DNA of 5,769 bases from contig PLSH01000186.1 of assembly GCA_003165095.1 (NCBI GenBank), positions 3,852 through 9,620 on the forward strand, given 5' to 3'. The notes beneath the pieces are model-generated. The model saw only the letters and a list, made by a program, of their open reading frames with translations. It was not told where the DNA came from and did no database searches. Both the position numbers and the translations under genes were made by a program. Origin of the DNA: Acidobacteriaceae bacterium. GTDB taxonomy: Bacteria > Acidobacteriota > Terriglobia > Terriglobales > Acidobacteriaceae. Every line of letters begins with the position of its first letter. The first letter of the stretch is position 1. Positions 2,054-4,437 of the stretch are shown in pieces.

Positions 2054-2057
2054 CCTC
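2054..2057 (-). promoter_or_regulatory. Ribosome binding site of hpnC
   Basis: GAGG lies 9 bases before ATG 2044-2042 and overlaps the TGA stop of the upstream dehydrogenase (2058-2056). It fixes the hpnC start and indicates coupled translation with the upstream gene. Confidence 0.55.
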
Positions 2058-3297
2058 AGGGCACAATCGCGGTCTTGATCTCGCTCGAGCGCTTCATCAG
2101 CTTCTCGAAAACGCGGTTGAGTTCGTACAGGTTTGCATGGCCGGTGATGAATGCGCCCGCCTGGAACCGCCCTCCGGCAATGATGTCGAGAGCCTGGCGG
2201 CAGATGGCCGGCGTGTGGTGGAATGTCGCGCGCAGGGTGATGTCGCTGTAGTGGATGCGGTTGGTATCGAGCGTGACCCGGGTCTTTGCCGCGCAGCCTC
2301 CGAAAAAGTTGACCGTGCCTCCCTTGCGCACCAGGTCGACCGCTTCCTGCCACGCCTCGGGCACGCCCACTGCTTCAATCGCAATGTCCACGCCCCGGTC
2401 CTTCGGCGTCAGCGCCCGCGTTTCGAGAATCGCCTTGGGTATGCTCGAAGTCTGCACCACGTGCGCCGCTCCCAGTTGACGCGCCGCTTCCACCTGCCCA
2501 TCGTGCTTGACCAGCGCAATCACCTCGTACCCGGCCAGCGCCGCCACGTGCAGAATCATCAGTCCCAGCGGACCACCGCCGATGACGGCAACAATGTCGC
2601 CCTTGCGCGGCCGCGAATCTTCAAACCCGTGTACCGCGCAGGCCAGCGGCTCGGTCAGCGCCGCGTGCTCCAGAGGCACGTTGTCGGGAATATGAAGCGT
2701 GTTCATCTCCACAATCCGCGACGGGATGCGGATGAATTCGGCATAAGCCCCATTATTGAAGAGCAGGTCGTCGCACAGATTCTCCTGACCGCGCGCGCAA
2801 AAGTAGCACTTTCCGCATGGCGCGGAGTTGAGAGCCACCACGCGATCGCCGGAAGTAAAGCCCGTAACTCCCTCGCCCGCCTCTTCTACCGTTCCAGCAA
2901 GTTCATGGCCGAAGAGTGCCGGCGGCACAATCATCCGCGCGTGGTAGCCGCGGCGAAACACCTTCAGATCGGTTCCGCAGGTCAGAGCCGCGCCCACGCG
3001 CACGACCAGCTCGCCGGTTTCGGCTTTGGGAATGGGAACCTGCTCGATGCGAACGTCTTCGCGGCCGTGGAGGACGGCGGCCTGCATGGTGCTGCGTCCG
3101 TAAAGAAGGGTGTGCTCGACGGTTCTGCGGCCCAGGCTGACAGCGGATTCGACCGTCTGACGGCCCTTGCCGACCACCGCGTCGACTGTATTCAGACCTG
3201 CTTCGACGACGGTCTCGACGGTATCCAGGCCTCCCTCGACGACGTCCTCGACCGTCTTGCGGCCACGGCGGATCGCGTCTTTCACCGTGTTCGCCAT
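2056..3297 (-). CDS. Zinc-dependent MDR dehydrogenase with N-terminal 11-residue repeat extension
   Basis: This 413-residue protein joins an unusual ~70-residue repeat segment to a complete zinc alcohol dehydrogenase. Residues 4-69 are six 11-residue repeats. The dehydrogenase begins near M71 (MQAAVLHGREDVRIEQVPIP). Catalytic zinc ligands are visible as C107 (TCGTD), H131-E132 (GHE) and E216 (TEP). Structural zinc is bound by C161, C164, C167 and C175. The Rossmann loop is GGGPLG (240-245). At the end of the second Rossmann strand, where NAD enzymes usually have Asp, the sequence is VIALVKH (V263, K264), which may favour NADP. The substrate is unknown; the overall style resembles sorbitol/threonine dehydrogenases. 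The start at ATG 3297 has a strong AGGGGG site 5 bases upstream, while M71 has no good site, so the extension is translated. Its place between hpnG and hpnC suggests a hopanoid-related redox step (inference). Confidence 0.9.
   Translation of the reverse strand: MANTVKDAIRRGRKTVEDVVEGGLDTVETVVEAGLNTVDAVVGKGRQTVESAVSLGRRTVEHTLLYGRSTMQAAVLHGREDVRIEQVPIPKAETGELVVRVGAALTCGTDLKVFRRGYHARMIVPPALFGHELAGTVEEAGEGVTGFTSGDRVVALNSAPCGKCYFCARGQENLCDDLLFNNGAYAEFIRIPSRIVEMNTLHIPDNVPLEHAALTEPLACAVHGFEDSRPRKGDIVAVIGGGPLGLMILHVAALAGYEVIALVKHDGQVEAARQLGAAHVVQTSSIPKAILETRALTPKDRGVDIAIEAVGVPEAWQEAVDLVRKGGTVNFFGGCAAKTRVTLDTNRIHYSDITLRATFHHTPAICRQALDIIAGGRFQAGAFITGHANLYELNRVFEKLMKRSSEIKTAIVP
3091..3288 (-). repeat. 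Six 33-base coding repeats (11-residue amphipathic repeats)
   Basis: Six consecutive 33-base units encode TVKDAIRRGRK, TVEDVVEGGLD, TVETVVEAGLN, TVDAVVGKGRQ, TVESAVSLGRR and TVEHTLLYGRS. A seventh, TMQAAVLHGRE (3058-3090), is already the start of the dehydrogenase fold. There are no indels. Units 2 and 3 match at 26 of 33 bases; other pairs are more diverged, and the changes keep Thr-1, Val-2 and Gly-9. At 98 degrees per residue (three turns per 11), positions 2, 5, 6, 9 and 10 form one face that is mostly nonpolar. Positions 1, 3, 4, 7, 8 and 11 form a mainly polar or charged face. The two acidic units (2 and 3) are followed by increasingly basic ones. Confidence 0.9.
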
Positions 3298-3302
3298 CGA
3301 AT

Positions 3303-3308
3303 CCCCCT
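3303..3308 (-). promoter_or_regulatory. Ribosome binding site of the repeat-bearing dehydrogenase
   Basis: AGGGGG lies 5 bases before ATG 3297-3295 and overlaps the TAG stop of the preceding dehydrogenase (3309-3307). It is among the strongest sites in the window and shows that translation starts before the 11-residue repeats, not at the internal Met71. Confidence 0.7.
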
Positions 3309-4437
3309 ACTCTGCGCCGGACCCTGGCACAGGCTCCATCATAATCTTCATCGAGCCGGGCTGGGGATGGGATGCAATTTCGATGGCCGCAACAGCATCT
3401 TCAAACGGAAAACGATGCGAAATCAGCTGCGTCAGGTCGAATCCGTTGCGGTAACCGTCAAACACCAGGCCCGTCACTTCGTCGAGGATCGGGAACGAAG
3501 AAGAGTATGAGCCGAGAAGGGTCTTTTCGTCCACACAAACCGCCGCGGGATCGATGGTGGCTTCACCATGCTGCGTCTGCGCAAACAGCATCACCTTGCC
3601 GCCCGGCCGCACCGCGTCCATCGCCGTCCGGATCAGCGCGTTCCCGCCCACCGCCAGGATCACCGCGTCCGCGCCGCGGCCTTCTGTCTCGGCAAACACC
3701 CGCTCCACCACATTCTCGCTCCCCGCGTGGATGGGATCCTTCAGGCCGAAACGGGCGGCAATGGCGTGGCGCTCGGCAAACAGGTCCGAAGTAAGAACCC
3801 GAGCGCCTATGCGCCGCGCCAGCGCCGCGTGCATCAGCCCGATCGGACCCTGGCCAATCACCAGCACCGTATCGTCGGCGGCAAGATTGAGCAGCTTCAG
3901 TCCTTTGAGCACCGTGTTGAGTGGTTCGATGAAAGCAGCCTGCTCAAATGGGACGCCGTCCGGAATGTGCACCACGCCGCGGTTCGCCACCACAAAGTCC
4001 ATCACGCGAATGTACTCGGCAAACCCTCCGCCAGACGCCTCAAAGCCGGCCGTCGCGCCGGTTTTCTTATAAAGCGGGCACTGCGCCGGCGTTTGCTTGC
4101 GGCAGTAGTAGCACTGGCCGCAGGGGACATGATGAAAGGACATGACGCGGTCGCCCACGGCAAATTTGGTGACGCCTGTGCCCACCTCCGCGACCACACC
4201 AGCCATCTCGTGGCCGAAGATGCGCGGCGCGGAGTGCGAGCCCATGTGAATCTTCTTCAGATCCGTCCCGCAGATGCCGCAGGTGGCGATCTTTATCAAT
4301 AGCTCGCCGGGGCCAATCCGAGGCACGGGCACGGTCTCAACCCGCATGTCGTTGACGCCGCGGTAGACCACGGCTCGCATGGTGGAGGGGATTTTGGACT
4401 CAATAATCGTTTCAGCGCCTGATGTCTGGGTAGCCAT
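3307..4437 (-). CDS. Zinc-dependent MDR dehydrogenase (sorbitol/threonine dehydrogenase-like)
   Basis: This 376-residue medium-chain zinc dehydrogenase has a complete set of motifs. Catalytic zinc ligands are C56 (GICGTD), H76-E77 (GHE) and E171 (EP). Structural zinc cysteines are C106, C109, C112 and C120. The Rossmann loop is GQGPIG (195-200), and D218 (VLTSD) stands where an acidic residue selects NAD. The substrate cannot be read from sequence; members of this group oxidise polyols, amino alcohols or other secondary alcohols. ATG 4437-4435 is preferred because AGGA lies 6 bases upstream. An in-frame ATG at 4464 would overlap hpnG by 8 bases and has no ribosome site. Residues 1-19 are a short polar leader before the usual fold start (MRAVVYRG). 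The stop overlaps the ribosome site of the next dehydrogenase, to which this one is clearly homologous but well diverged. Confidence 0.9.
   Translation of the reverse strand: MATQTSGAETIIESKIPSTMRAVVYRGVNDMRVETVPVPRIGPGELLIKIATCGICGTDLKKIHMGSHSAPRIFGHEMAGVVAEVGTGVTKFAVGDRVMSFHHVPCGQCYYCRKQTPAQCPLYKKTGATAGFEASGGGFAEYIRVMDFVVANRGVVHIPDGVPFEQAAFIEPLNTVLKGLKLLNLAADDTVLVIGQGPIGLMHAALARRIGARVLTSDLFAERHAIAARFGLKDPIHAGSENVVERVFAETEGRGADAVILAVGGNALIRTAMDAVRPGGKVMLFAQTQHGEATIDPAAVCVDEKTLLGSYSSSFPILDEVTGLVFDGYRNGFDLTQLISHRFPFEDAVAAIEIASHPQPGSMKIMMEPVPGSGAE

Follow-up and report, generated by a model that had tools for sequence, protein, structure and literature searches.

A predicted helical tail built of six to eight units of 11 residues, probably copied from the enzyme's own first eleven codons, on a hopanoid-operon dehydrogenase of many soil acidobacteria

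Exact 11-residue units with a 3-11 helix period, rich in Thr, Val and Gly and carrying few aromatic residues, build the helices of perilipins 3 and 4 and of synuclein, and an array with all of these features and a similar hydrophobic moment forms the N-terminal tail of the bacterial zinc dehydrogenase described here. Thr, Val and Gly are poor helix formers in water, and they are prominent in the tail and in the perilipins alike. The tail differs from these proteins in being fused to an enzyme, and against Pfam it gave no match reaching a cut-off, the Perilipin and Synuclein families included. In the values printed in PMC5889406, perilipin 3 has a hydrophobic fraction of 0.37, an aromatic fraction of 0.01, a charged fraction of 0.23 and a moment of 0.35, and perilipin 4 has corresponding values of 0.35, 0.002, 0.15 and 0.257; the same source reports that 66 residues of the perilipin 4 helix on their own are cytosolic, and PMC8064757 reports that perilipin 4 targeting is almost abolished by Lys-to-Arg changes. 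As far as these sources describe it, perilipin 4 is a much longer helix built on Lys and Asp, in contrast to the Arg- and Glu-rich tail. The closest described enzyme is 'ug2', a Zn alcohol dehydrogenase of about 350 residues and unassigned function that often precedes hpnC in acidobacteria of subdivisions 1 and 3 (PMC5462960). The gene studied here, MDR2, fits 'ug2' by its position before hpnC and by the size class of its enzyme part, but the accessible text on 'ug2' gives only the approximately 350 residues and nowhere mentions a tail.

The window, by which we mean the whole 5,769-nucleotide stretch analysed (contig PLSH01000186.1 of an Acidobacteriaceae bacterium), carries part of a hopanoid operon on its minus strand, with matches from open reading frames, Pfam and NCBIfam to hpnA (partial), an hpnG-like gene, two dehydrogenases (MDR1 and MDR2), hpnC and an hpnD-like gene, which bears out the placement of the array in a hopanoid operon by the preliminary description. 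The hpnG-like gene encodes a phosphorylase that scores below its NCBIfam cut-off, hpnC passes its cut-off, and the hpnD-like gene falls somewhat short of its own. MDR2 (2056..3297, minus strand) encodes 413 amino acids with ADH_N at residues 94-195 (86.1 bits, cut-off 23.5) and ADH_zinc_N at 243-374 (80.0 bits, cut-off 31.8), and among the NCBIfam models it reached no named equivalog, the best being tdh at 164.9 bits with a cut-off of 458.35. Its catalytic and coenzyme domains run from Met71 onward (2056..3087), on evidence from Pfam, NCBIfam and solved structures. The columns that we take to be zinc ligands are C107, H131/E132 and E216 for one set and C161, C164, C167 and C175 for the other; C107 and E216 are invariant among 91 sequences and the others are kept in at least 90%. 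The whole enzyme part matches the MDR zinc dehydrogenases 4ej6, 2dfv and 1e3j, of the threonine 3-dehydrogenase and sorbitol/ketose reductase kinds, at 28-30% identity and a TM-score of 0.88-0.89 (normalised by target). These solved enzymes lack an MDR2-type tail: the 38 sequences found at E<=1e-20 align from query residue 65-92, and none covers the tail. The 9-base gap to the upstream gene (3298..3306, minus strand) reads GGGGATTCG, by eye a possible ribosome-binding site before the tail's ATG. That upstream gene, MDR1 (3307-4437, minus strand), belongs to the same broad class of dehydrogenases as MDR2 and adjoins the hpnG-like gene, and its best NCBIfam models, threonine and scyllo-inosose dehydrogenase, both remain below cut-off. 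The enzyme converting ribosylhopane to bacteriohopanetetrol has not been established according to PMC12583986, and MDR1 is, in our own estimation, a candidate for this step.

The tail itself (residues 1-69; 3091..3297, minus strand) consists of Met-Ala, six 11-residue units and one junction residue. Unit 1, NTVKDAIRRGR, lies at 3259..3291, and units 2-6 (KTVEDVVEGGL, DTVETVVEAGL, NTVDAVVGKGR, QTVESAVSLGR and RTVEHTLLYGR) lie at 3094..3258. These six units run without gaps over residues 3-68, and the enzyme's own STMQAAVLHGR (3061..3093), composed of the junction residue and the first strand of the enzyme, continues in register, so that TMQAAVLHGR looks like a seventh unit and is presumably the parent of the repeat. 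The preliminary description spoke of seven units in one place and six in another, and both counts are defensible, with six in the tail and the seventh being the enzyme's first strand. Identity at a lag of 11 amounts to 27 of 58 residues, compared with a mean of 5.0 and a maximum of 16 in 100,000 shuffles, and Tandem Repeats Finder detects a 33-base period at 3171-3252 (2.5 copies, 77% matches). The hydrophobic moment of residues 5-66 at 98.18 degrees is 0.355, a value reached by 1 of 20,000 shuffles. The tail is thus a real repeat, and the exact 11-residue periodicity ahead of an MDR dehydrogenase and the amphipathic pattern that had been noted from the sequence both hold. A search of titles and abstracts, with most subscription papers outside its coverage, found no description of this tail.

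Scanning of GTDB genome contigs yielded 101 related loci, and the N-termini of the best 80 were read. Among these 80 loci, 37 carry the array, 42 do not, and one (L079) is cut off. All five neighbours of MDR2 (hpnA, hpnG, MDR1, hpnC and hpnD) are matched in the same order and strand around 54 of the 76 loci placed on trees, 25 tailed and 29 tailless, where the hpnC match of L068 is a weak match to a paralogue; the other 22 miss at least one neighbour, many of them at contig ends. Tailed genes start like MASTVKDAILRGR, pass through the 11-mers and close with TMQAAVLHGRED; they typically open with MAxTVKDAIxRGRK, and the array ends with TM[QRK]AA[VI]LHGR[EQ]D in 36 of 36. Tailless ingroup genes start like MATTMKAAILHGRED, with the motif M[AS](A)[TS][TS]MxAA[VI]LHGR[EQ]D in all 30; among tailless genes that are more divergent, the N-termini differ from this motif and contain no repeat. 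The idea that tailless genes are frameshifted copies is rejected for these 30 genes, whose start motif is intact throughout (the start DNA of L035 was also read by eye), and because they start cleanly without a frameshift the tail is an optional module. The preliminary description had named absence or frameshifting of the segment in related hpn clusters as evidence against its reading; absence was found in 42 of the 79 judged loci among the best 80 of 101, including the 29 with all five neighbours in order, whereas no frameshift was seen in the 30 ingroup genes. In a separate query with the tail region, for which candidates were restricted by length and shared words, 402 of 580 candidates passed E 10, and all of the 120 matches listed, tallied by reading, show ADH_N (PF08240). 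A tailed gene also occurs in the named strain Occallatibacter savannae AB23, and the tail is therefore not restricted to metagenome bins. One tailed gene (L003) comes from a contig of 4235 bases whose bin is labelled Rudaea sp. (Pseudomonadota); on both trees it falls among acidobacterial rows, and its assignment is probably a binning error.

Comparison of tailed and tailless genes provides evidence on where the array came from. Unit 1 of 36 tailed genes and the start of the 30 tailless ingroup genes, whose compared DNA windows begin one residue later than the unit, at T, share a mean of 19.9 of 33 bases in comparisons that are non-independent and leave out 11 divergent tailless genes, compared with a mean of 8.8 (SD 2.5) for 67,932 frame-correct windows elsewhere, of which a fraction of 0.00004 reach that value. 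The best pair, L009 and L050, agrees at 28 of 33 bases, and unit 1 of L009 (TMKDAILRGRK, at L009:6001-6050) retains the Met of the tailless start and is the closest thing to an intermediate that we have seen. Unit 1 also resembles the first strand of its own gene (mean 18.9 of 33 bases, range 11-25, control 9.4): in 25 of 36 tailed genes it is closer to the first strand than to any other in-frame window tested. The remaining 11 genes comprise ten of the HGR type and L034, and in these between 1 and 75 of about 312 in-frame windows match unit 1 at least as well as the first strand does. Codon identity at identical residues is 54% where 49% is expected, which lends weak support to copying, and the inner units of the HGR type are alike in DNA (an average of 25 of 33 bases in L015, 18 in the window), consistent with later copying inside the array. 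Because the DNA of unit 1 resembles the tailless start strongly and at the expected place, we regard it as very probable that in-frame tandem duplication of 33 bases at the gene's own start gave rise to the array. The first 11 codons (T-M-K-A-A-I-L-H-G-R-E, encoding the first strand) would have been copied in frame, in tandem, until six to eight units preceded an intact enzyme, and the copies would then have diverged into T-V-E-x-[AV]-[VIL]-x-x-G-R-x.

The subsequent history of the tail appears to be one of repeated change. The loci placed on trees comprise 35 tailed ones, with the fragments L067 and L076 outside, and 41 tailless ones, with L066 outside. The tree of the five neighbour genes (76 rows) also leaves out L080, the MDR1 match of L058 and the HpnC match of L068, and was given L071, L072 and L074 as its chosen root. 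With this root the divergent loci L061, L062, L064, L065, L068, L069, L071-L075 and L077, all of them tailless, branch first, and for this reason the tailless state is taken as ancestral. The enzyme-part tree (77 rows, with L066, L067, L076 and L079 dropped and the bootstrap not settled), for which the very long branch of L080 served as root, gives no clear ancestral state. The tail label changes 9 times on the enzyme-part tree, at least 3 of them forced by well-supported branches, and 14 times on the neighbour-gene tree, at least 10 of them forced, in a quick search without bootstrap. Grouping all tailed genes in one clade on the enzyme part is marginally rejected (p-AU 0.036, quick tree), and this value together with the 9 and 14 label changes speaks against a single clean gain with vertical descent. 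Our reading of the sequences is that the tail arose once and then underwent losses and gene exchange, since tailed genes share derived features of unit 1 (V for M and R for H, each in 35 of 36); independent origins in separate lineages might also contribute to the pattern. The module would on this reading be dispensable, lost, regained or exchanged several times, because its presence is mosaic on the trees. The tailed L015 and tailless L035 are 95% identical in their enzyme parts, and L022 and L050, one tailed and one tailless, are sisters on the neighbour-gene tree. DNA identity between L022 (6001-7242) and L050 is 0.88-0.90 upstream, 0.79-0.81 over most of the MDR2 gene and 0.83-0.86 past it, a dip that could possibly reflect replacement of a gene carrying the tail, a weak case because identity falls again to 0.80-0.81 further downstream. 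Such pairs amount to a natural experiment on the contribution of an 11-mer helix to an enzyme encoded in a lipid operon, and they could offer a clue to the function of MDR2. Because tailless, tailed and differently counted versions coexist at one operon position, the birth of a domain by slippage would be traceable in living relatives: a new domain made by stuttering over a gene's own start and not by borrowing, with the copies apparently switching from strand to helix. This origin from the enzyme's first strand and its mosaic presence are the stronger finding, both new relative to the preliminary description, and the lipid-surface idea is plausible.

Structure prediction, which the preliminary description had recommended, models the tail as a single long helix. 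AlphaFold2 places one helix at residues 5-66 of the window protein with low confidence (approximately 55-65) and models TMQAAVLHG as a strand at 70-78, and in L015 it places a helix at 4-78 with pLDDT mostly 75-83 and a strand at 81-87. On these models similar 11-mers form a helix within the tail and a strand within the enzyme. In 36 of 36 arrays the maximum of the hydrophobic moment lies at 97.5-99.5 degrees, and array means are 0.37 for the hydrophobic fraction, 0.01 for aromatic residues, 0.30 for charged residues and 0.30 for the moment. In moment and composition the tail is near the printed values of perilipins 3 and 4, a comparison that is approximate because the tail moments were calculated by script and not by HeliQuest. 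We propose that the diverged copies would form a single long helix in which 11 residues make three turns and along which runs a narrow stripe of weak hydrophobicity, that in an MDR dimer or tetramer these helices would rest together against the inner face of the membrane that carries the hopanoids, and that the docked tails would hold the enzyme loosely near a lipid substrate or its partners. From these features we infer that membrane docking is the most likely role, with self-association as its main rival, and the setting in an operon that makes membrane lipids plausibly supports docking. Several observations speak against lipid binding, including the Arg/Glu composition, the cytosolic behaviour of 66 residues of perilipin 4 and a charged fraction of 0.30 versus 0.23 in perilipin 3 and 0.15 in perilipin 4; net charge is near zero and varies (-3 to +6, mean +1.4), so that no consistent pull towards an anionic membrane is expected. 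An oligomeric enzyme with several tails could offset weak binding by avidity. We lean towards duplication of the gene's own start followed by membrane docking as the whole explanation, while the more specific picture, in which a surface-docking domain was born from the first beta strand and the same 11-mer is strand in the enzyme and, in tandem copies, an amphipathic helix targeting the hopanoid membrane, is held more tentatively, as something short of probable. The lipid-surface interpretation first put forward thus retains its amphipathic repeat, predicted helix, period, moment and perilipin-like composition, and is weakened by the 42 of 79 loci that lack the segment and by an 11-mer pattern that is equally that of a hendecad.

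The alternative, already raised in the preliminary description, shares the same origin and makes the tail a right-handed hendecad coiled coil, in which helices from two or four subunits coil around each other to stabilise or lengthen the oligomer, or associate with a different protein. MDR enzymes are oligomers, and in hendecads the core residues follow the register rule a-d-e-h. The conserved V2, A/V5, V/I/L6 and G9 of the units are spaced 3, 1, 3 and 4, which is this register and fits a coiled coil equally well, and the a-d-e-h positions stay in register over the array in 203 units from 31 arrays, with h being Gly, small and not hydrophobic. In these units, from which five off-register arrays with a junction shift were left out, V2 (198) and G9 (191) are nearly fixed and are flanked by T1 (164), E3 (158) and R10 (152), positions 4, 7, 8 and 11 vary most, and a small-xxx-small pattern (A5-xxx-G9) recurs. 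What counts against a coiled coil is the nearly fixed Gly in the stripe, unlike hendecad coiled coils, and to our knowledge such structures seldom have a core so rich in Gly, Val and Thr; furthermore, comparison of the window tail with solved chains found no related sequence, the best match being a microcompartment protein at E 0.49. We regard self-association of this kind as rather unlikely.

The pattern of change in the units bears on whether the tail is of use to its bearers. Pooled over nine non-overlapping pairs whose arrays have the same length, dN/dS is approximately 0.19 in the tail and 0.08 in the enzyme, rough figures in that one pair, L004 and L023, joins different array types and synonymous change is high in several. 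Purifying selection on the tail is clear at the level of these sequence comparisons, and it rules out translation from Met71 with the tail left untranslated. The 31 in-register arrays have 6, 7 or 8 units in 15, 15 and 1 cases. Among the 157 proteins most like that of the window, 148 could be measured, the others being 4 in which the strand motif and 5 in which unit 1 was not recognised; the array span is divisible by 11 in 109, within which compensating shifts were not looked for, and in the remaining 39 the shift sits in or just after the last unit with the earlier Gly (or Ser) in step. The helix phase thus seems to be guarded and the joint to the enzyme not. These data make it improbable that slippage during replication left a selfish or neutral repeat of little or no use, tolerated as a by-product and held in frame only to spare the enzyme: the mosaic presence of the tail on both trees, its variable number of units and the common tailless orthologs would suit such a repeat, but a dN/dS of this size, off-register shifts confined to the enzyme junction in 39 of 148 proteins and the 98-degree period of all 36 arrays do not.

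It is very improbable that the array was taken from another gene of the YtxH- or DUF883/ElaB-like kind with 11-mers, its likeness to the first strand being convergence. The extension profile has weak matches to P0170, a YtxH protein (E 2e-5), and to P0171, a DUF883_C protein (E 0.15). Against such a donor, the DNA of unit 1 agrees with the start of the enzyme itself far beyond the control level and where copying would place it, up to the 28 of 33 bases of L009 and L050, an agreement that would not be predicted from convergence, and beyond the gene itself the genomes of eight relatives gave only 16 weak rows (E 0.016 to 0.96). Two of these rows were identified: L091 is by eye a NusA and a chance match, and L094:447-878 is a YtxH-like protein whose loose 11-mer helix pattern, VSALVDKSREHVSAFVDKGKEHV, is similar to the tail, a similarity for which we claim no homology. 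Among 7,991 candidates scored there were 21 matches, and the 16 proteins read contain no independent donor of 11-mers: P0158-P0169 are copies of the same gene that are fragmentary, frame-broken or joined, and the others are a YtxH protein and DUF883-like proteins. Of three further tails scanned against Pfam, only that of L034 (3312-3515, TVEDVLQVGR type) matches Synuclein, at 18.7 bits and below the cut-off of 23.3. In P0169 the array is joined to a histidine-kinase piece (PF02518) on a 516-base contig, and in P0124 the tailed enzyme is joined to an unrelated sequence of PF03699, which we take to be a membrane family; both are likely assembly chimeras.
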